Source: a bacterium (lineage in GTDB: Bacteria > Coprothermobacterota > Coprothermobacteria > Coprothermobacterales > JAADFF01). From it: 12,887 bases of DNA. The stretch spans positions 1 through 12,887 of the forward strand of contig JAMORD010000013.1 in NCBI GenBank assembly GCA_027063755.1. The letters are read 5' to 3'. The translations under genes were made by a program, and so were the position numbers. The notes beneath the pieces were generated by a model. That model saw only the letters and a list, made by a program, of their open reading frames with translations. It made no database searches and was not told the origin of the DNA. Of the stretch, positions 2,627 through 12,654 are shown piece after piece. Within the stretch, counting starts at the first letter, position 1. Each line of letters opens with the position of its first letter.

Positions 2627-4003
2627 TTAGTCACTTGGCACCACCACATTGAAAATCTGTTTTACAGGAATGGGTACATCTAACATCATTGATGTTGTAG
2701 ACCCATCCTTCCAGTAAACATCTGCATATACCCTAACAAGCACATTACCCTCAATATAGAGGAGTGCCTGGGGAGTATAATTGGGAACAGTCCACACCAC
2801 ACTGGCATAAATAGGCACCATAGGTAAATCATCTGGTTTAAAGTTGGGTAAAGACCAGCTATACATATCGTAATATGACGGAGAAGCAAGATTCATAGGC
2901 ATAGAAAATAACCCCCCCGTTGTCAACTGTGCATGCGTCCTATCAACATTCCAATAAGAGGTATAAATATAAGACGGATACAAAAGCTGTAATGTCAAGG
3001 CAGCGACAAATCCTGCAAGAGGTCCATACACTACATCGGCAGCTGTAGAAACAATAAAGGACACAGCTGATTTTGCCGTGGTGAAACCTGCCATAGGCGG
3101 ATTAAATAAATCTTTATCTCCCAAAATATCCTCATCAAATAGGAACGCATTATCTATATAGCTACCGATATTTATATCTTTAATCTTCCAAGTCATACTG
3201 ATACTCTTGACATATGTATGGGATATCTCTATATTCTTTACTAAGCTGTACGGAAAGTTTTCCAAGCTATAAAGTGCTTCCTTTACCTTATCCTGTCTAA
3301 CAATAAGACCAGATCCAACAGACAAAGCACGAAAATCCCTCTGATATACCTTTTGTATAGGCTGAACTCTCACCCCGTTTTCTACATGTATCGTCTGATA
3401 GTAATCACCTGTACCATGGATATCGTATTGTATAAGTACATTTGTTTCAGGTGCAAGTTCTGTTCCCACCTTAATAGGACCAATTTCATCTAACCTATCA
3501 CTACTGGATAAAACAGCCTCCTTGTTAACAGGCATATAATAGCCATCATCTGAGGAAGATTGTGAAGTTTCACTGCTCCAGGATAATTGTGTAGCACCTG
3601 TGTTAAATATGGACTTTTCAGCCTCTACCAAGAAATGCTCTCTCCTATGATAAAAAGCCTTCAATATATATGTTTCACCATCAAACTTGTACACTTGCCA
3701 CCGGTAAGCAGTTCCGTAAGAGCCCACCAAAATTTCTAGCCACTGGGGATTTTCAAATGAATTATTCTGGAAAAAATATAAAGTACCATATCTTGTAGAA
3801 ACATATCCTCCTTCAAATGTGCTACCGTCTACAGTGGCTATGGCTTTCCCATCATCTAAAACTCTAATATAGACACGGCTACCATGAATAACAAGAGGAA
3901 ACTTTACCTGTGAATAACCAATGCTCGGGACAGAAAACAGAAGCACAGAGAAAACAATCACAAACACCAAACAAATCTTCAACCATTTGCTAAAGTATCT
4001 CAC
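2627..4003 (-). CDS. Exported protein of unknown family, paralogue of the protein at 1-765
   Basis: The 458-residue protein starts with a classic signal peptide: basic start (RYFSKWLK), hydrophobic core (residues 9-24) and a likely cleavage region near SIGYS-Q (31-32). No lipobox cysteine follows, so it is not an Lgt substrate. The start is a GTG at 4003 with GGGGA 6 nt upstream. Residues 40-120 match the partial protein at 1-765 (GGYVSTRYGTLY, WLEILV, YRWQVY), and VGSGLI at 229-234 matches VGFGLI there. Between about 305 and 345 lies a long apolar stretch (AVSFIVSTAADVVYGPLAGF and following) that could insert in a membrane or be a buried helix. The C-terminal 100 residues look beta-rich, with many Tyr, Trp and Pro. 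No catalytic motif is apparent. It is probably a surface or periplasmic protein; function unknown. Confidence 0.85.
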   Translation of the reverse strand: MRYFSKWLKICLVFVIVFSVLLFSVPSIGYSQVKFPLVIHGSRVYIRVLDDGKAIATVDGSTFEGGYVSTRYGTLYFFQNNSFENPQWLEILVGSYGTAYRWQVYKFDGETYILKAFYHRREHFLVEAEKSIFNTGATQLSWSSETSQSSSDDGYYMPVNKEAVLSSSDRLDEIGPIKVGTELAPETNVLIQYDIHGTGDYYQTIHVENGVRVQPIQKVYQRDFRALSVGSGLIVRQDKVKEALYSLENFPYSLVKNIEISHTYVKSISMTWKIKDINIGSYIDNAFLFDEDILGDKDLFNPPMAGFTTAKSAVSFIVSTAADVVYGPLAGFVAALTLQLLYPSYIYTSYWNVDRTHAQLTTGGLFSMPMNLASPSYYDMYSWSLPNFKPDDLPMVPIYASVVWTVPNYTPQALLYIEGNVLVRVYADVYWKDGSTTSMMLDVPIPVKQIFNVVVPSD

Positions 4004-4038
4004 AACGCATCCCCATTTCTAACAAGTTTTGCACGATA

Positions 4039-4067
4039 ATTATAACATATGATAACGTATCATAACA
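4039..4067 (-). promoter_or_regulatory. Promoter for the exported-protein gene with a possible operator
   Basis: On the minus strand a perfect TATAAT (4044-4039) lies about 35 nt before the GTG start at 4003. The hexamer 17 nt upstream (TGTTAT) is a poor -35. Between them is an inverted repeat TGATA-ACG-TATCA (plus strand 4050-4062), placed where a bound repressor would block RNA polymerase. The -10 is convincing; the operator is an inference from one short palindrome in AT-rich sequence. Confidence 0.45.
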
Positions 4068-4108
4068 CATATAAAATCATACACAAACACAGAAGAAACA
4101 GAGATGAT

Positions 4109-4133
4109 AAAAATAGGGGAGCATCTGCTCCCC
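4109..4133 (-). terminator. Rho-independent terminator of nrdJ
   Basis: On the minus strand GGGGAGC-AGAT-GCTCCCC (4133-4116) forms a perfect 7-bp stem (8 bp if the loop is closed further), followed directly by TATTTTTATC (4115-4106). It begins 29 nt after the nrdJ stop codon at 4163. Structure, T-tract and position all fit. Confidence 0.88.
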
Positions 4134-4162
4134 CTTCTGCATCACCCAATATCTTATTTAAT

Positions 4163-7100
4163 TTAACTTGATGTACACATACTCCAGCCACACACAGGGC
4201 ATGTAATACAACCTGATTCATGGGATAGCTTCTCATTACCACAAACGGGGCATACGGTTATCTCTCCACTATCTTCCTTTACAGGCACCAGTTTTTCTGT
4301 CATCTCTATCTCAAGCATAGGCATTGGTGCCATGCCAGAGATATCTTCTTCATCAAAGAAATCTCTCAGATAAGGATATCTGTGTATAAGTTTATCTATC
4401 ACCTTACGGGCATATGGGCTTGCGGGATATGGCTCATGATACTCCTTCTGTGTCTCTGCCACATACACCTGCATATCCAGACTACCATCTCTGTATACGG
4501 TTACACCCTTAGCACCAAGTCTTTCAGCAAGCACAAACGCCTTTTTCACATCGCCAACAGACACACTATTGGCCATATTGATAGTCTTGGAAATAGAATT
4601 TGTTATCCACTTCTGGAAGGTTGTCTGGGCTATAACATGGTCAGCCCAGTGTATATCCATGGCTGTAATAAATACCTCTTTCAGGTCTTCTGGTATATTC
4701 TCAAGGTCTTTGAGAGATCCACCAGCAGACGATATCTTCTCAAGAAGCACTTCATCGTACATGCCCCTCTTTCTCAATACCTCTTCAAAGACCTTGTTGG
4801 TGTAATAGTAGGTACCCACCGTTGTCACCTTTTTGAATACCAGTGAGAACAGAGGCTCAATACCAGAAGAGGTATCAGAAATCATAGATACAGAACCTGT
4901 AGGCGGTGCTGTCGTATGGTCTACATTGCGTATACCATACTGCTTAATCTCTTCCGCAAGCTTATCCCACGGTAGTGTAGGCTCACCAGTATACACCCCG
5001 GCTACTGGCAGCTTACCTTCCTTATAATCTGTCTCTTCCCAGTAAGAGAAAGGTCCTCTCTCCTTGGCAAGTTCAAGGCTCTCCTCCATGGCATAGTATG
5101 TGAGATATTCAGCCAGTCTTTCCATAAACTTGTAGCCCTCTTCAGATGTATACGGTATACCCAGTCTAAATAGGGCATTTGCAACCCCCATAATACCCAC
5201 ACCAATGTTGCGACCTGCCCTTGTGTGGTCTCTAATTTTGTCCAGTGGGAAATTATTGACATCTACGAAGTTGTCAAGGAGTCTTGCCGTTGTGCGTATA
5301 GTCTTAGCATATGCCTCCCAGTCAAAGTAAGGTTTTTCCTCATCATCGTATCTTACAAATGCCTCTACATTGACAGAGGCAAGATTACAGGATTCATAGG
5401 GATAAAGGAACTCTTCTCCGCAATTTGATTTAACAATAGAAAGCCCTGGAGTATATATATGGGGACCATCTATAACAGTAATATCGTATACAATCTGTTT
5501 CCCAGTATCCACAACCTCCTTGACAGTAAGAATATTGTTTTCCACCTTGAACTTCTTATGCTCTTTGTTTTTATTCTCGTCAATAAAACCAATACAATCT
5601 AGGAATAGTTTCCTTGAGTAATTCTTAATGATAATCTCATAGTATCCAGAGGCCTTATATACTCTATCATCACCATCTTTAGTTGTATATGTAAACTCAC
5701 TCTCATATGGTCTATCGTATATCTTACCTTTGACACCAAACATGTTAAGAAGCTCCAAAACACCCTTCAGCAGCTCCTTTGAGCTACTTGTCAATCTTAT
5801 TGCTTTGTCATTGTCAATGTAGCCATCTGCTGTAAAAAGAGCTGCAAGAAAACCTCTAACAAAATCTATGCCTTCGGTAAAAACAAACTGAGGAACTACA
5901 GAATTCTTACTTTTATGAGCTTGCATTCCTTTGTCTACTACATACTTAAATAGACCTCTTGAAGAAACCACCAGCTCTGTTTCCTTCTCTGTCACAGACA
6001 CATTGCTGTCAAAATGTCTGTTAATAATATCAGCCATTCTCTTTGCTATATGCTTTTCATTTTTACTAAAAACAAGAATAGCCTGTTTTGACGCTTCATT
6101 GATATATCCATCTCCCACAAGCCATCCTACAAGAAGACCTTTTTCATAATCTCCTTTTTTCTCCCAATCTATCAGAGCTCTGGGATAGCGTATTTTCTGC
6201 CCCGCCTTTAAATCTTTAGCATAGACAAATGTTCCATCTTCTATCATAATCTTTGCGGTGGCACTAACACCAACCTCATAACCTTCCTCTGTGATAATCT
6301 TTACGGTATCCTTGGTGCCTATTTTCCACACTGCTGCATCTCTTAGTTCATATTTATAGGCTATCTGTTTTACTCCATGAACAGTTTCATACAAAACTTC
6401 TTCCTCTATAGGCACAAATATCTTTGTCATATATCCAATCTTTTCTCCATCTGCAGAAAACTCATCTTCTGACTTAGAACTTACTTTGTGCCCATCGGAT
6501 TTGGCACTTTCAAACAGCTGAGAAATAGCAACAAGGCCCTTTGAAGTTGGTATCTTCATATCACCTGTAACACATGGGTTCGTTACTCTAATCTCACCCA
6601 GCTTGTTTTTTCTGATGTTATATCTATTGCCGTTGTGGAAATATAAGAATGCTGGGTCACCTTTGGCCCATGCATACTCAGCCACTTTATCAAGGATCTC
6701 ACGGGCTCTTATCTTCTGAAGTACAGCCTTATTTCTTGGGTTGATAAGGTCTATCTCCTCATCGGAGTAAACAGCTTCCCAGAAATGTTCATCAGAGCCA
6801 ACGGAGAGGTTAAAAGTAGACAGATAATTGTCTCCCCTGTTTTTCTCTTTGGCCTTAATAAAGTCCATTACCTGTGGGTGCCAGTATTCCAGTATGGCCA
6901 TGCCTGCACCACGACGGACACCACCTTGAGAGATAACAGAAAGCACCCTATCGTAAAGCTCAAGGAATGATATAGGACCAGAGGCAACACCAACAGTTCT
7001 TTTTACAATATCACCCTTGGGCCTGAGCACGCTGAGGTTAATACCTACTCCACCACCCATTTGGGCTATAATGGCCATCTCCTTGGCAGTATCCATAATA

Positions 7101-7981
7101 GCATCAAGGGAGTCATCGGTTGCAACAGTAAAACAGGCCGAGAGCATACCAAGTGGCCTACCGGCATTAACAAGGGCTGGTGTGTTAGGCATAAACAGCT
7201 GATGTGTCATGCCCTCAAAAAACTCACGCACTTTCTGTTTGGCCTTATCAAAGTGCTTGCCACTTTCCAACATTGACAAAACTTTAGAAAGAGGATGTTT
7301 CATATGTCCATCTTTGGCAAGAAGGTCATAAAGATACACCAGTCTCTCAAAATGATATTTGTTTAGAGGAAAGCCCTCATCTATCTTGTAAAGATTATCA
7401 AACTGCTCTGGATTTTCCTGCCACCTCTTTCTATATTCTTCAACCTCTGCCTTCATTTTCTCGGTGTACTTGTGTCCACCGTCTTTGTCAAAGACGGCCT
7501 CATCGTATAAAACCTCTGGAATAGCACCGAGTACAGCTACACGGGTAAAAAGGCCCTCTACATCCTCAAGGAACTTGTCAGGGTCATTGGGGTCCTTCCA
7601 CAGATAACGGATTGTCAGCAGTCTAACGGCATTAAGGGAAAATCTCTTTTCTGTAGGGGAAAGAGTATCTTTCTTTAGCAGTTTTTTCTTCTCTTCCCTA
7701 ATCTGTCTCTTACGCTCTCTGTATAGAATAAAGGCCTTGGCAACATCAAACAGGCCCCTACGCATAAATGTCAGCTCAATAACATCTTGCACCTGCTCCA
7801 CCTGAGGTGTACCACTGGGATATAGGTTCTCCAGTGTTTCAACAACCTCATCAACAATATCATCTACAAGGGTGGAAGAATACATACCCACCTCTTTGAG
7901 GGCACCACCAACAGCACGAACAATGCGACTACGATCAAATGGCACCTGTCTTCCATCACGCTTTATAACATGGGTAATCAA
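4163..7981 (-). CDS. nrdJ: Class II (adenosylcobalamin-dependent) ribonucleoside-diphosphate reductase containing an intein
   Basis: NrdJ makes deoxyribonucleotides using an adenosylcobalamin radical, independently of oxygen. The precursor is 1272 residues; removing the 384-residue intein (470-853) leaves 888. Residues 1-95 are an ATP-cone (VIKRDGRQVPFDRSRIVRAV), the dATP/ATP activity switch. GGGVGINLSVLRP (310-321), NP-C-GE (radical cysteine Cys854 after splicing), ESCNLASVN (863-871), and PPTGSVSMISDTSSGIEP (1026-1043) are class II signatures. Cys283 and Cys865 are the expected reducing pair. The tail carries CPVC...CPVCGWSMC (1244-1269), the zinc-ribbon/redox-cysteine end usual in NrdJ. 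The start is a TTG at 7981 with GGAGGG 7 nt upstream; ITHVIKRDG right after it fits an ATP-cone start. The CruF-like gene ends 46 nt upstream, so they may be cotranscribed. A leader hairpin precedes the gene; a terminator follows. Confidence 0.95.
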   Translation of the reverse strand: MITHVIKRDGRQVPFDRSRIVRAVGGALKEVGMYSSTLVDDIVDEVVETLENLYPSGTPQVEQVQDVIELTFMRRGLFDVAKAFILYRERKRQIREEKKKLLKKDTLSPTEKRFSLNAVRLLTIRYLWKDPNDPDKFLEDVEGLFTRVAVLGAIPEVLYDEAVFDKDGGHKYTEKMKAEVEEYRKRWQENPEQFDNLYKIDEGFPLNKYHFERLVYLYDLLAKDGHMKHPLSKVLSMLESGKHFDKAKQKVREFFEGMTHQLFMPNTPALVNAGRPLGMLSACFTVATDDSLDAIMDTAKEMAIIAQMGGGVGINLSVLRPKGDIVKRTVGVASGPISFLELYDRVLSVISQGGVRRGAGMAILEYWHPQVMDFIKAKEKNRGDNYLSTFNLSVGSDEHFWEAVYSDEEIDLINPRNKAVLQKIRAREILDKVAEYAWAKGDPAFLYFHNGNRYNIRKNKLGEIRVTNPCVTGDMKIPTSKGLVAISQLFESAKSDGHKVSSKSEDEFSADGEKIGYMTKIFVPIEEEVLYETVHGVKQIAYKYELRDAAVWKIGTKDTVKIITEEGYEVGVSATAKIMIEDGTFVYAKDLKAGQKIRYPRALIDWEKKGDYEKGLLVGWLVGDGYINEASKQAILVFSKNEKHIAKRMADIINRHFDSNVSVTEKETELVVSSRGLFKYVVDKGMQAHKSKNSVVPQFVFTEGIDFVRGFLAALFTADGYIDNDKAIRLTSSSKELLKGVLELLNMFGVKGKIYDRPYESEFTYTTKDGDDRVYKASGYYEIIIKNYSRKLFLDCIGFIDENKNKEHKKFKVENNILTVKEVVDTGKQIVYDITVIDGPHIYTPGLSIVKSNCGEEFLYPYESCNLASVNVEAFVRYDDEEKPYFDWEAYAKTIRTTARLLDNFVDVNNFPLDKIRDHTRAGRNIGVGIMGVANALFRLGIPYTSEEGYKFMERLAEYLTYYAMEESLELAKERGPFSYWEETDYKEGKLPVAGVYTGEPTLPWDKLAEEIKQYGIRNVDHTTAPPTGSVSMISDTSSGIEPLFSLVFKKVTTVGTYYYTNKVFEEVLRKRGMYDEVLLEKISSAGGSLKDLENIPEDLKEVFITAMDIHWADHVIAQTTFQKWITNSISKTINMANSVSVGDVKKAFVLAERLGAKGVTVYRDGSLDMQVYVAETQKEYHEPYPASPYARKVIDKLIHRYPYLRDFFDEEDISGMAPMPMLEIEMTEKLVPVKEDSGEITVCPVCGNEKLSHESGCITCPVCGWSMCTSS
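5423..6574 (-). mobile_element. Intein with LAGLIDADG homing endonuclease inside NrdJ
   Basis: This in-frame insertion (NrdJ residues 470-853) splits the active-site motif NP|CGE, so the +1 extein residue is the radical cysteine itself. Block A is CVTGDMKIPTSKGLVAI with Cys1. The two endonuclease motifs are LLVGWLVGDGYI (616-627) and FLAALFTADGYI (711-722), with both catalytic Asp residues (624, 719), so the endonuclease looks intact. Block F is VYDITVIDGPHIY (831-843). The C-terminal junction reads IVKSN|C: Asn is present but the penultimate His is Ser852. Block B reads GVSATAKIMI, with Ala576 where the usual TxxH histidine would be. Three sampled 60-base lines inside had 16, 25 and 19 G+C against 31, 30 and 31 in the exteins, consistent with horizontal arrival. 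Boundaries are exact from the flanking motif. Confidence 0.95.
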
Positions 7982-7988
7982 AGCAAAG

Positions 7989-8024
7989 CCCTCCTTTCAT
8001 GAAAAGGGTAAATCCCCTTTCATG
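7989..8024 (-). promoter_or_regulatory. Leader with two mutually exclusive hairpins before nrdJ
   Basis: On the minus strand CATGAAAGGGG (8024-8014) can pair with CCCTTTTCATG (8008-7998): 7 bp, one A/C mismatch, then 3 bp, closed by a 5-nt loop. The same CCTTT segment can instead pair with the AAAGG just downstream (7997-7993), which is part of the nrdJ Shine-Dalgarno AAAGGAGGG. The first fold leaves the ribosome site free and the second hides it. There is no T-run, so this is not a standard terminator. A role in translation control of nrdJ is inference. Confidence 0.4.
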
Positions 8025-8027
8025 TTA

Positions 8028-8825
8028 TCAGAGGACATCGTACATAGAAGTTCCAAAAATTTCAATTAATAGTGATAGAATCACAGGCACTATGATGTAA
8101 GGTTTGGAGGCATATAGTCCTGACCAGAAAAACACAACAAGTGAAGTCAAATAAAAGGCCCATCTAATCATGACTATATCTTGAGGAACAACATCTTTTG
8201 CAAAACCCCACACTCTTACAATAATTCCAATAAATAACACAAGCCCCCATAACACATAGTACATGACAAGATACGGCACATACTTCAGGCCAAACATAAG
8301 GGCAATCCACACAGGAGGATATAATGCTCCCCACAGAATATACATCCACCAAGAGGGTTTTTTCACATTGACGATAAACATATATGACAGGCCCACGACA
8401 AATCCGGCCAGAAACCACCCCCAGAAATTGTAAAGGGGTATCCCCAAAAAATCTGTAGTAGGCTCCAATCCCTTCTTCCACACCCACAAACCGGCATGGG
8501 CCATAACAGGGTCAAGGGCAATATCTATAAGTACCGTAAAAAATGCCGTGGCAAAGGGATATAAAAATTCGGGAAGCCTAGAACGCCTGACAATCTGCAC
8601 ACTAGTAAATATGATAAGGGCCCAACCAGCAGGAATAGCCAGTGGAACACCAAAGGGCATAACAAGAAAACCATGATAGCCGTAAGCGTGAACATAATCT
8701 ACACCCAAGACCTCCATAACGAGTCCCAATAAAAAGATAGACACGATAAAGGCCCAATAATCTCTATATTGATACAGCAGGTATAAAAACATGACAAACA
8801 ATACTATCTCAACAAATATGGTCAC
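8028..8825 (-). CDS. CruF-like integral membrane protein (carotenoid biosynthesis family, DUF422/PF04240)
   Basis: The 265-residue protein has about seven or eight membrane helices. Family motifs are GLVMEVLGV (34-42) with a conserved Glu, YGYHG (48-52), DIALDPVMAH (101-110), GLWVW (112-116) and GIPLYNFWGWF (128-138). These fit the family containing CruF, which hydrates carotenoid end groups in Deinococcus, and the bisanhydrobacterioruberin hydratase of haloarchaea. The start is a GTG at 8825 with GGAGGTGA 6 nt upstream. No phytoene synthase, desaturase or cyclase gene is in the window, so the substrate here is unknown and the protein may serve another isoprenoid. On the minus strand TAAAAT at 8857-8852 could be its -10, but I see no convincing -35. 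It lies 46 nt before nrdJ with no terminator, so the two may be cotranscribed. Confidence 0.8.
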   Translation of the reverse strand: MTIFVEIVLFVMFLYLLYQYRDYWAFIVSIFLLGLVMEVLGVDYVHAYGYHGFLVMPFGVPLAIPAGWALIIFTSVQIVRRSRLPEFLYPFATAFFTVLIDIALDPVMAHAGLWVWKKGLEPTTDFLGIPLYNFWGWFLAGFVVGLSYMFIVNVKKPSWWMYILWGALYPPVWIALMFGLKYVPYLVMYYVLWGLVLFIGIIVRVWGFAKDVVPQDIVMIRWAFYLTSLVVFFWSGLYASKPYIIVPVILSLLIEIFGTSMYDVL

Positions 8826-8879
8826 CGTCTATCACCTCCACTGTCTATTTCATTTTACACATAGTCACATAAAACACAC

Positions 8880-8908
8880 TTGACAAAGATGACAATGTTA
8901 TGCATAAT
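8880..8908 (+). promoter_or_regulatory. Strong sigma70-type promoter for the two small genes
   Basis: A perfect TTGACA (8880-8885), a 17-nt spacer and CATAAT (8903-8908, 5/6 match) make the best promoter in the window. Transcription would start near 8915, giving a leader of about 43 nt with GGAGGTGA (8945-8952). It faces the CruF-like gene divergently. Confidence 0.75.
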
Positions 8909-8957
8909 GAATAGCCATATGCAGAATATGGTATATAGGTGTGAGGAGGTGATGCAT

Positions 8958-9077
8958 ATGCTAAGCATATACGATAGACTGATGAAAACCCTCGTATACA
9001 AAGAGGATAAGAAGATACTGCAAATGGCAATAAACGCAGTAGCACTGGGAGCGGTAGAGATGGGGCTGAGGGTATAA
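8958..9077 (+). CDS. Microprotein of 39 residues, unknown
   Basis: The ATG at 8958 lies exactly 5 nt after a perfect GGAGGTGA, and the gene follows the best promoter in the window, so expression is likely. An in-frame ATG at 8952 overlaps the ribosome site and is less likely. The protein begins MLSIYDRLMKTLVY, then KEDK at 15-18, then a helical apolar stretch with LGAVEM at 30-35 and a final RV. It has no signal peptide and is too short for a recognisable domain. KEDK at the same residue numbers and an LGxxE motif recur in the next small gene, suggesting duplication. The stop codon lies in the loop/3' arm of a strong hairpin (9063-9087). I do not recognise it. Confidence 0.68.
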   Translation: MLSIYDRLMKTLVYKEDKKILQMAINAVALGAVEMGLRV

Positions 9078-9087
9078 CCCTCAGCCC
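9063..9087 (+). terminator. Perfect 11-bp hairpin between the two small genes
   Basis: GGGCTGAGGGT-ATA-ACCCTCAGCCC is a perfect 11-bp, GC-rich stem with a 3-nt loop, overlapping the last codons and stop of the 39-residue gene. No T-run follows on either strand, so it is not a textbook intrinsic terminator. It may slow polymerase, protect the upstream message from 3' decay, or set different levels of the two small proteins. Confidence 0.5.
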
Positions 9088-9120
9088 GACCTAACAATAC
9101 TATGAAGGGAGGTGATACAT

Positions 9121-9231
9121 ATGAAAAGGATGGAAAAAGTCTTTACAGTCAAGTCTCAGCGCAAAGAAGACAAGCACTACTTTACCGGTCTTCTACTTGG
9201 AACATTGGAGCTCCTTGCCAAGACTGCATAA
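9121..9231 (+). CDS. Microprotein of 36 residues, unknown
   Basis: The ATG at 9121 lies 5 nt after GGAGGTGA (9108-9115), the same arrangement as in the small gene upstream. The product starts MKRMEKVFTVKSQR, has KEDK at 15-18, then HYFTGLLLGTLELLAKTA. The basic first half followed by an apolar helix suggests a membrane-associated or amphipathic peptide. The LGTLEL block corresponds to LGAVEM of the neighbour with a gap of four residues, one helical turn. The gene ends 22 nt before the convergent stop of the deacetylase-family gene, with no terminator visible between them. Function is unknown; the case for a real gene rests on the ribosome site, promoter and similarity to its neighbour. Confidence 0.62.
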   Translation: MKRMEKVFTVKSQRKEDKHYFTGLLLGTLELLAKTA

Positions 9232-9253
9232 GATCCCTCCCCTCTCCTCCGGC

Positions 9254-10153
9254 TCACTCCACTTTCATAAAATCTTCTACAATAGCTCTCCACAACTGGG
9301 CCGTTTTAGGGAAGTTGAATCCTCCGCCACCAAGCAGCACAACGGGGAAGTTTCTCTTTCTACTACACCGTGCAAGCACAGGTGCCACTGCGTGATAAAA
9401 GCGCTCTGTCAGGTTAATACCACTCATAGGATCATCTTTGTGCCCGTCCACCCCCATCTGTATTATTAGAAGCTCAGGCATAAATGGGGGTATAACACGG
9501 GGAAATAGTGGAACCAACCTCTGTATGACACTCTCTTCTGACTCACCGGGTTTGACAGGTATATTGATATTTCTATCGTCATTTTCATCTTCATAGCCCG
9601 ATGTATAGGGGTATTGGGTAGAAGGGTCTTGATGGATAGATACGGTAAACACATCGGGATCGTCTTTAAAGCCCTTCCATGTACCATCACCATGATGCAC
9701 ATCCCAGTCTATGACCATAACCCTATTCAGGCCATGCTGTTTTCTCGCATACTCTATACCTACACCAATATCATTGAAAATACAAAATCCCTTACCCCTC
9801 TCCCTCTCTGCATGGTGCCAACCACCACACACATTGACTGCCACCCCACCATGCTCAAGGGCCTTATCAATGGCCGTAAGGGTAGCCCCAACAGACCACA
9901 AAGCAGGCTCATATAGGCCTGCTGTTGGTGTATCCATAGATGCGGGGGCACCATGTTTTACAAGACCCAGATATGCCGGAGTGTGAAATAGAAGTATCTC
10001 TTCATCAGTTGCCTTGCGGGGTGGCACTATCTCAATACCCTCTATCTTGGCTATCTCCTCAGCTCCCCATTTACACCTGATAGACCTCATAGGGTGTCCT
10101 TCTCCGAAATCATAAGACAGTAGCTCGTCAGACCACACAAGTGTTCCTTTCAT
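9254..10153 (-). CDS. Histone deacetylase/AcuC-family protein with altered catalytic Tyr
   Basis: The 299-residue protein has the full arginase-like deacetylase fold motifs: GGWHHAERERGKGFCIFND (110-128) with the His-His pair, DWDVHHGDGT (149-158) with zinc ligands Asp151 and His153, and GVDGHKDDPMSG (234-245) with the third ligand Asp236. The usual GGGGY motif near the end reads LLGGGGFNFPKTAQLW (273-288), so Phe279 (codon 9317-9319) sits where the transition-state Tyr belongs. Members remove acetyl or related groups from lysines or small amides; AcuC acts on acetyl-CoA synthetase. Zinc binding looks intact but activity may be lower or changed. The ATG at 10153 has GGAGGTGA 5 nt upstream; the in-frame GTG at 10162 overlaps that site. 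It is monocistronic, with no deacylase partner nearby. Confidence 0.92.
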   Translation of the reverse strand: MKGTLVWSDELLSYDFGEGHPMRSIRCKWGAEEIAKIEGIEIVPPRKATDEEILLFHTPAYLGLVKHGAPASMDTPTAGLYEPALWSVGATLTAIDKALEHGGVAVNVCGGWHHAERERGKGFCIFNDIGVGIEYARKQHGLNRVMVIDWDVHHGDGTWKGFKDDPDVFTVSIHQDPSTQYPYTSGYEDENDDRNINIPVKPGESEESVIQRLVPLFPRVIPPFMPELLIIQMGVDGHKDDPMSGINLTERFYHAVAPVLARCSRKRNFPVVLLGGGGFNFPKTAQLWRAIVEDFMKVE

Positions 10154-10248
10154 AACACTCACCTCCTATTGAATAAACAAACCTCATATAAAGGGCAACC
10201 TCCCAAACTATAAGTGGCACATATCCCTACCTGACACTATCCTTTCAC

Positions 10249-10277
10249 ATTTTACGGCTCATAAACACAAATAACAA
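10249..10277 (-). promoter_or_regulatory. Candidate promoter of the deacetylase-family gene
   Basis: In the 204-bp gap 10154-10357, the minus strand has TTGTTA (10277-10272), a 17-nt spacer and TAAAAT (10254-10249): 4/6 and 5/6 matches. It would give a leader of about 90 nt. I see no convincing small gene, RNA gene or recO terminator elsewhere in this gap. Confidence 0.42.
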
Positions 10278-10357
10278 AGACATACAAAGTAAGCGACAAA
10301 CAGGCATCACTAACAAAAGCAGATGTCATAATCCACTGTGCCAATGTATATACCTAC

Positions 10358-11110
10358 TCAACCACCCTTTCGTCCAAACGAATAAAATACATGTCTCACA
10401 GCCTCAGATACAGGGATAGTGGCAAATGTCCTATCAAGTATTAAACGATAGGCATCTTCGGATATAAAATCGTCACCGTAGTGCCAAGACACCCTTTTAA
10501 GCTTAACAATCTCACGAAGCACATCTTCGGCAATGGTATATGTACCCAGTTTTACACCATGAAGAACATTACACTCTTCACACACAAGATACCCCTCATA
10601 TGGTGTGTAATACCAAACTCCACCATCATATTTCTTACCGCATATACCACATGTGGCACCACTCATAAACACACGGTAGCCCATAACCCCAATGTATTCC
10701 AGCAAAAACTTGGCAATAGCCGTTTTACCTGCCATTTTAGAGTGCAAAAACGACACCAATGTATCCCACTCGGCATACGATTCGTTGTCTTTCATAACAC
10801 TGCTGTCAACAAGGGTGGCAATAGCCATACGAAGCATGGGATTCTTCCTAACAAACACAGGAGGTAATGTATCAACCTGAAATGCCGTTAGAACATACCT
10901 ATCCCCAACGGGATACAGTATCATCTCACCGCCCTCAAGGGGCTCAAACGATGCACCCCACTTATGGGTATCTTTACGGGCACCCCGTATGAGAACATCT
11001 ATCTTGCCAAGATCGGAGGTTAAGACAACAGAAGATATAGCTCTCTCGTCTCTATGAAGTCTCTTATCAAGAATAATGCCGTGGGTAGAAATATATTTAC
11101 TTCTGGCCAT
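10358..11110 (-). CDS. recO: DNA repair protein RecO
   Basis: RecO acts with RecR and RecF to load RecA on SSB-coated single-stranded DNA and to anneal strands. The 250-residue protein has the N-terminal OB fold (STHGIILDKRLHRDERAISS at 8-27, then LTSDLGKIDVLIRGARK at 30-46), a helical middle, and a four-cysteine zinc finger: CGIC at 154-157 and CEEC at 177-180. Length is typical. The ATG at 11110 fits the family start but has no free Shine-Dalgarno: the gap to deoC is filled by a terminator-like hairpin, and the nearest GGAGGTG is inside it, 16 nt away. It lies downstream of era-nfi-deoC, matching the frequent era-recO linkage of Firmicutes. Confidence 0.9.
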   Translation of the reverse strand: MARSKYISTHGIILDKRLHRDERAISSVVLTSDLGKIDVLIRGARKDTHKWGASFEPLEGGEMILYPVGDRYVLTAFQVDTLPPVFVRKNPMLRMAIATLVDSSVMKDNESYAEWDTLVSFLHSKMAGKTAIAKFLLEYIGVMGYRVFMSGATCGICGKKYDGGVWYYTPYEGYLVCEECNVLHGVKLGTYTIAEDVLREIVKLKRVSWHYGDDFISEDAYRLILDRTFATIPVSEAVRHVFYSFGRKGG

Positions 11111-11140: not shown

Positions 11141-11980
11141 TTAGTATCCCTGTCCGTCGTCGGTCATATCGGCATCTTCACCGTGATACAGGGCTATATA
11201 CTGCTCCATAATCTGCACCGTGCGTGATGTACCCAGCCTATTGGCACCGGCCTCTATCATCTTCAGTGCAGCCTCTGCTGTGCGAATACCACCAGATGCC
11301 TTGACACCTTTATAAGGCCCTACAACTTCTCTCAGCAATTTGACATCTTCCACGGTCGCCCCGCCACCTAAAAAACCGGTAGATGTCTTGACAAAGTCGG
11401 CACCGGCTGCCATGGCTATAGCGGCGGCAACTTTCTTCTCATCTTCTGTAAGAAGGCCCGTCTCCAATATGACCTTAACAACAACATCTCTCTCCTCTCC
11501 ACCGGCAGCCCTAATAACCTCGGCAATATGCCTCTCTACCATGTAATAGTTCTTCTCCTTGAGATAGCCTATGGGTATCACCATATCAACTTCATCTACC
11601 CCCATCTCTACAACCTTCTCTGTCTCATAGGCCTTCATCAGGGCTGTGCCGGCTCCCAGTGGAAAGTCAATAACGGCCACAACGGCAACTCCAGTGTCTG
11701 TCTCCTCCTCTTCTTCTATAATCATAGGAAACTCATCGGCCACATTCTCTGGCTCAGGAATCTCCTCAATATACTCCCCCTCGGGAATACCCGTGAGGTC
11801 GCTAACCAGCTCCACAGCCAACGGTACATGTATGGGATTGACACATACCCCGTAAAAACCATAATGATATGCCTCTTCAACAAGCTTACGCACCTGTGCC
11901 GTTGTAGCCTCAGGTTTCAAAAGCGTATGGTCAAAAAACCTTGCAAATTCTGTAGGCTTAAGCATATTCTTCTCCTCCAT
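11141..11980 (-). CDS. deoC: Deoxyribose-phosphate aldolase (DeoC) with an acidic insertion
   Basis: DeoC cleaves 2-deoxyribose 5-phosphate to glyceraldehyde 3-phosphate and acetaldehyde, in deoxynucleoside breakdown. The 279-residue TIM-barrel protein shows FDHTLLKPEAT (16-26), VCVNPIHVPLA (45-55), IDFPLGAG (104-111), VDEVDMVI (128-135) with the catalytic Asp, DFVKTSTGF (195-203) with the Schiff-base Lys198, and KASGGIR (227-233) with the second Lys. It is longer than typical enzymes of about 220-260 residues because of a 33-residue insert (65-97) with 14 acidic and no basic residues. The ATG at 11980 has GGGAGG 9 nt upstream inside the nfi end; a second ATG at 11965 has its own GGAGG 8 nt upstream, giving a protein shorter by five residues. 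It starts 2 nt after the nfi stop. Confidence 0.94.
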   Translation of the reverse strand: MEEKNMLKPTEFARFFDHTLLKPEATTAQVRKLVEEAYHYGFYGVCVNPIHVPLAVELVSDLTGIPEGEYIEEIPEPENVADEFPMIIEEEEETDTGVAVVAVIDFPLGAGTALMKAYETEKVVEMGVDEVDMVIPIGYLKEKNYYMVERHIAEVIRAAGGEERDVVVKVILETGLLTEDEKKVAAAIAMAAGADFVKTSTGFLGGGATVEDVKLLREVVGPYKGVKASGGIRTAEAALKMIEAGANRLGTSRTVQIMEQYIALYHGEDADMTDDGQGY

Positions 11981-11982
11981 TG

Positions 11983-12654
11983 TTATAAACCTCCCTCTTT
12001 TCTCAATTTATTGGCATATATGTGTGCACTTCGTATTACCTTAGGTATTTTATACCCATCGGCCATAGACTTGATGATTTCTACAGCCCTTTCTGGAGAT
12101 ATGCGATAACCCGGTGAGATGTAAACGGGGCCTCCCCTCTTCCCCAACTTTACCTCATAACCCAGCACCATACCATCTTCAGGGTCTATTACCTTACCAT
12201 CTACAACATTACCATACAGAAGTTTCTTTGCAAAGCCTATGGTCTTCTTGTCAAATATAAATCCCATATGCGTAGCAATACCAACACGCAATGGATGGAT
12301 AATGCCCTGCCCATCAAAGATGACAAGGTCAAGCTCTTTCACAATATCCTTTAAAAGCTCATATAAAAGAGGTCCCTCCCTAAACACAAGATATGTGGGA
12401 ATGTAAGGAAACACATATTTTCCACTGTAGCCATACCAATCAAGCATCTTGAGAGACGGATACTCAAATACAGTGCATGCGGCATATGCATAGGGAGAAT
12501 ACATATTGGCAGACACATCTACAACGCCAAAGACAAATGTATCTTTTAAGGGAGGCTCATCGTCAAGGATGAGCCTCTCACTAATATAACGCTGAACTTC
12601 TCTTGCCTGCTTAAGATTCTTTGGGTAGAGTAAATCCGAGATCGGTAAGGACAC
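11983..12654 (-). CDS. nfi: Endonuclease V
   Basis: EndoV nicks DNA at the second phosphodiester bond 3' of deoxyinosine, beginning repair of deaminated adenine; deamination is a special burden at high temperature. The 223-residue protein has FGVVDVS (42-48) with metal ligand Asp46, [12 protein letters not shown] (84-95) with the wedge YIP and Glu93, [19 protein letters not shown] (109-127) with Asp114 and His120, [10 protein letters not shown] (139-148), and [13 protein letters not shown] (174-186). Spacing of the catalytic acids matches the Thermotoga enzyme closely. The start is a GTG at 12654, with GAGG 8 nt before it, inside the end of era; the genes overlap by 44 bp and no later in-frame start precedes the conserved core. 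Its stop is 2 nt before deoC, so the three are one operon. Confidence 0.93.

Follow-up and report, generated by a model that had tools for sequence, protein, structure and literature searches.

Between a carotenoid-synthesis-type domain gene (PF04240, 8028-8825, minus strand) and a convergent deacetylase-type gene (PF00850, 9254-10162, minus strand) lies an interval that an initial annotation had read as two tiny genes of 39 and 36 residues. Do these frames encode proteins, and if so, what could such a pair do? The window, that is the whole stretch of 12,887 nucleotides that was analysed, belongs to a 1.5-Mb draft genome in 251 contigs, with a completeness of approximately 88%. For both frames, the comparison is that of a single species pair, this genome and one congener (G001).

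Two short frames and their substitution pattern

Both frames were located on the plus strand, with the sizes announced. ORF1 (8958-9077) extends from the ATG at 8958 to the TAA at 9077 and encodes 39 amino acids, MLSIYDRLMKTLVYKEDKKILQMAINAVALGAVEMGLRV. ORF2 (9121-9231) extends from the ATG at 9121 to the TAA at 9231 and encodes 36 amino acids, MKRMEKVFTVKSQRKEDKHYFTGLLLGTLELLAKTA. Neither overlaps another gene, and the plus-strand unit reads in the order promoter (8880-8908), leader, ORF1, hairpin, ORF2. The second frame had been described as too short for most gene callers. This is overstated, as it is 111 nt long and the default minimum of Prodigal is 90 nt.

The same two-gene arrangement, which the initial annotation had proposed to look for in relatives, is present in G001, with order, lengths and spacing unchanged. 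The ORF1 counterparts have 39 residues in both species and 87% amino acid identity, the ORF2 counterparts 36 residues and 86% identity, and each frame has one locus per genome in the two genomes searched. In ORF1, 15 codons differ between the species and 9 of these changes are synonymous; in ORF2, the figures are 12 and 7. With the Nei-Gojobori method, dS was 0.71 and dN 0.094 for ORF1 (dN/dS 0.13), and dS 0.45 and dN 0.101 for ORF2 (dN/dS 0.22). The dN/dS comparison, also proposed initially, revealed codon-aware substitutions in both frames. Of the outcomes that the initial annotation had named as refuting it, loss of either frame in a close relative or substitutions blind to codon position, neither occurred. 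As a yardstick, neighbouring genes gave 0.01 to 0.24. The synonymous excess was pronounced when the two frames were pooled (Fisher p ~1e-6) and weak for ORF2 by itself (p 0.008). When the same 36 substitutions were scattered randomly, 54% of trials acquired a stop, and in 20,000 scatterings the combination of so few amino acid changes and no stop never arose.

Another 79 small ORFs of the window served as a control, and nine of them had a comparable signal (p < 1e-3, with open frames). By their coordinates, all nine lie opposite real genes, so that their signal is inherited from the codon structure of the other strand. For ORF2, all three antisense frames are closed by stops in both species. 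For ORF1, two antisense frames are largely open, and its strand is assigned not from the substitutions but from the promoter, the indels and the Shine-Dalgarno sequence, which the antisense frames lack. A minus-strand gene over ORF1 was considered and rejected: its frame is open here, no Shine-Dalgarno sequence was seen by eye, and a stop is present in the congener. Judged by these substitutions, both frames are under purifying selection, and we estimate at about 0.9 the probability that both genes are real and encode lineage-specific small proteins.

The known range of the pair is narrow. Each two-row profile, run against 335 further genomes for homologues outside the genus, gave only short sub-threshold matches in long frames. 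A match in a genome of the same order (G006) was discarded, as it lies in a different frame of a miaA-like tRNA-modification gene (named by eye). No homologue was found in viral contigs, searched by protein and by pattern, nor in phage records. That the peptides mimic a larger protein encoded in their own genome was also rejected, as no second match was present there. With the PF00850 deacetylase as a synteny anchor in genome contigs, the pair was carried by the same congener only. This deacetylase shares 55-57% identity with proteins of Thermotogaceae and Marinitoga and had no match in genomes of the same order at E below 1e-20, a pattern consistent with horizontal transfer of that gene. At the Thermotogaceae loci nearest by deacetylase sequence (55-57%), the pair did not appear among the best tblastn matches.

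Two observations were made elsewhere in the window. The ribonucleotide reductase gene (4163-7981, minus strand) contains a LAGLIDADG intein at 5424-6570; the congener gene can be aligned to both flanks but has no intein between them (R 3424-4685 and 4681-10980), its intein site being empty. Besides, the proteins encoded at 1-765 and 2627-4003 (minus strand) have a similar N-terminal pattern, PYGTLYVLSADD and RYGTLYFFQNNS, and are possible paralogues; no Pfam match was obtained for the longer one.

Relation between the two peptides and their predicted fold

The residues KEDK occupy positions 15-18 in both peptides, and a motif LGxxE(M/L) begins at residue 30 of ORF1 and residue 26 of ORF2, with the four-residue offset that the initial annotation had noted. 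Its observation of the same Shine-Dalgarno sequence exactly 5 nt ahead of each ATG was also correct: GGAGGTGA is present at 8945-8952 for ORF1 and at 9108-9115 for ORF2, identical in the congener at both places. From such resemblances an ancient duplication had been deduced. Several points would fit a tandem duplication in which both genes retained one ancestral function. A 4-mer matching at the same index, as KEDK does, arose in 0.1% of composition-preserving shuffles (3.3% when any index was allowed), the 16-nt start region GGAGGTGATRCATATG has an exact match at these two genes only in either genome, and local alignment with standard gap costs gave p values of 0.01-0.03. However, the motifs are in different registers: KEDK with KEDK and LG with LG can be aligned jointly only with a four-residue gap, and the best local alignment follows the LG register, not that of KEDK. 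Overall, p values against shuffled sequences ranged from 0.01 to 0.07. Neither peptide retrieved the other when its genome was searched with E values up to 1, profile-profile comparison (hhalign) returned a probability of 0.6%, and the Shine-Dalgarno sequence is the common form of this genome, present at other genes. The resemblance is marginal and the duplication not established; we regard it as doubtful.

Each peptide was modelled by AlphaFold2 as one helix, on two-row alignments: residues 2-38 of ORF1 (pLDDT 80.5) and 2-35 of ORF2 (pLDDT 80.6). Both are small and cationic, charged in the first half and hydrophobic in the second, and ORF2 contains a GxxxG motif (GLLLG). They had been proposed to be amphipathic or membrane-binding. 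Amphipathicity is at best weakly supported, the 18-residue hydrophobic moment reaching no more than 0.27 in ORF1 and 0.18 in ORF2. The same applies to membrane binding: the best 18-residue Kyte-Doolittle means are 1.58 and 0.80, with internal charge or polar residues in each, and a transmembrane span or membrane insertion is not supported by the sequence of either peptide. That no known family was recognised was borne out, as searches of Pfam, NCBIfam, PHROGs, PADLOC and PDB sequences with both peptides produced sub-threshold chance matches only.

On composition, a tentative role can be proposed, the most likely of those considered although we place it somewhat short of an even chance: the two peptides would have an accessory or regulatory function and bind a partner through their helices. 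In each helix, the hydrophobic C-terminal half would dock on a larger protein or on a membrane surface, and the charged half bearing KEDK would stay exposed.

Promoter, leader and intercistronic hairpin

The initial annotation had placed a TTGACA-17-CATAAT promoter ahead of the pair, and a sigma-70-type promoter is present on the plus strand exactly in this form (8880-8908; TTGACA at 8880-8885, a 17-nt spacer, CATAAT at 8903-8908). Its score, 11 of 12, agrees with the claim that it is the strongest of the window, except that it is tied with sites at 3207 and 11838. The congener retains every one of the 12 hexamer bases together with the 17-nt spacing, whereas only about 9 of the 17 spacer bases are common; by this comparison, the promoter is conserved between the two species. 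The arrangement supports co-transcription of the pair from one promoter, as a bicistronic operon. Co-transcription is the only functional link between the two peptides.

The 5' leader (8909-8957, plus strand) is identical in the congener at 49 of 49 bases, within an 80-nt identical run (8898-8977), and the non-coding DNA upstream of the promoter (8826-8879) is 76% identical. Since other fully identical runs of 173, 93, 92 and 80 nt exist in the window, the leader run is only suggestive of constraint. These runs (7680-7852, 2137-2229, 12002-12093 and 11145-11224) are found amid about 80-90% identity with the congener; they suggest patchy recombination between the two species, from which the identity of the leader may partly come. 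Two other readings of the leader were discarded. As a thermometer-like fold it had a z score near 0, and as a repeated element it is present in a single copy in each of the two genomes. At the predicted transcript start, placed from the position of the -10 hexamer, lies an inverted repeat, CCATAT-GCAGA-ATATGG (8915-8931, plus strand), which may serve as an operator or form a weak 5' stem-loop: its folding energy is -5.3 kcal/mol at 37 C and only -0.7 at 65 C.

Between the cistrons lies the clearest RNA element of the unit, an 11-bp hairpin (9063-9087, plus strand) which, like the identity of the leader, the initial annotation had not mentioned. In both species, the stop codon of ORF1 is found at the loop. 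The folding z score is -6.9 here and -6.5 in the congener, and the tenth pair, changed from G-C to T-A between the two species, amounts to one compensatory change. Unlike terminators elsewhere in the window, the hairpin has no T-run, which makes a classical terminator unlikely; it is most naturally read as a stabiliser or as a partial block separating the cistrons. After ORF2, a pyrimidine-rich gap of 22 nt (9232-9253, plus strand) separates the unit from the convergent deacetylase gene. Of its bases, 21 of 22 are identical in the congener, and by its excess of C over G, the 78-nt segment at 9219 ranks within the top 0.8%. No hairpin with a T-run was found in the gap, which is possibly a Rho-type transcript end. 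The transcript ends against the convergent gene, so that no larger gene lies downstream.

Could the transcript then be mainly a regulatory RNA, its leader and hairpin active and its frames secondary, like dual-function peptide-encoding small RNAs? The fully identical leader, the compensatory change in the hairpin and the end of the transcript against the convergent gene, with no larger gene following, would all fit. Against this, codon-aware constraint acts in two separate frames, no Rfam family reached the gathering score, shuffled sequences fold as well as the leader by itself (z -0.28), and the other identical runs of at least 80 nt weaken the argument from the leader, its identity being possibly due in part to recombination. 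A mainly regulatory RNA is unlikely.

Returning to docking helical peptides, the bicistronic operon with its own sigma-70-type promoter would produce two different, lineage-specific single-helix microproteins. The stop-codon hairpin would probably stabilise the ORF1 part of the message or lower read-through into ORF2, leading to differing amounts of the two peptides; if so, these two genes would be a simple example of differential expression within one operon. A bolder version, in which the members of this genus-specific pair form a heterodimer on a common target and the hairpin sets their amounts, would make a new type of two-microprotein regulator; we consider it quite unlikely.

Alternative roles and comparison with known systems

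Adjacent tiny ORFs with a conserved leader and structured RNA are also what a small toxin-antitoxin module might look like, either an RNA-locked type I toxin or one peptide neutralising the other, and the locus resembles hok/sok-type (type I) loci in having small ORFs on a structured message. It differs from them in lacking an antisense promoter, an end-to-end lock and a transmembrane toxin. Neither peptide is transmembrane-like, given the Kyte-Doolittle maxima reported above; between 8366 and 9700, no minus-strand promoter scoring at least 9/12 was found, sigma-70-type sites being the only ones covered; and the 3' tract pairs with the leader, in the manner of hok, no better than expected by chance (rank 918 of 2571 windows). 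In addition, each genome has a single locus with no sign of mobility, and PADLOC gave no match. Such a module is very unlikely.

A two-peptide bacteriocin or a secreted signalling pair would agree with small cationic helical peptides encoded in tandem, and the adjacency of the genes and the GxxxG of ORF2 recall class IIb bacteriocins. In contrast to these, a double-glycine leader is lacking from both peptides, and the genes beside the pair include none for immunity or transport. The C39 leader peptidase (PF03412) was not found in this approximately 88% complete genome, and both peptides are under strong purifying selection. Because neither a double-glycine leader nor a C39 peptidase was found, a two-peptide bacteriocin is highly improbable, and so is a signalling pair. 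Most improbable of all is that these are chance ORFs of an intergenic region: both are short and the species-pair evidence is limited, but neither frame is interrupted, amino acid identity is 87% and 86%, dN/dS lies well below 1, the promoter and both Shine-Dalgarno sites are kept in the congener, and the permutation test excludes it.

For the accessory role proposed here, a parallel can be drawn with small membrane subunits. CydX has a true transmembrane helix, and its gene lies beside oxidase genes. The likeness to CydX-type subunits (PMC4325964) resides in size (37 amino acids for CydX, 36 for ORF2), in a hydrophobic stretch and in the accessory role itself. On the other hand, the present pair is too weakly hydrophobic and no oxidase operon is present; no sequence relation to CydX was found via Pfam or NCBIfam.

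If translated as the promoter and ribosome sites suggest, the two peptides would be abundant proteins. The pair adds two very small, selection-supported genes to a poorly studied, thermophile-related lineage, where such genes are easily missed. Unannotated bacterial small proteins under 50 amino acids have been catalogued, for example, in sORFdb (PMC11796252). The pair is like them in its size, strong Shine-Dalgarno sequences, purifying selection, narrow range and lack of a family match, and differs in its tandem genes with a conserved hairpin, the first stop being at the loop. It belongs among narrow-range bacterial small proteins, a known kind.
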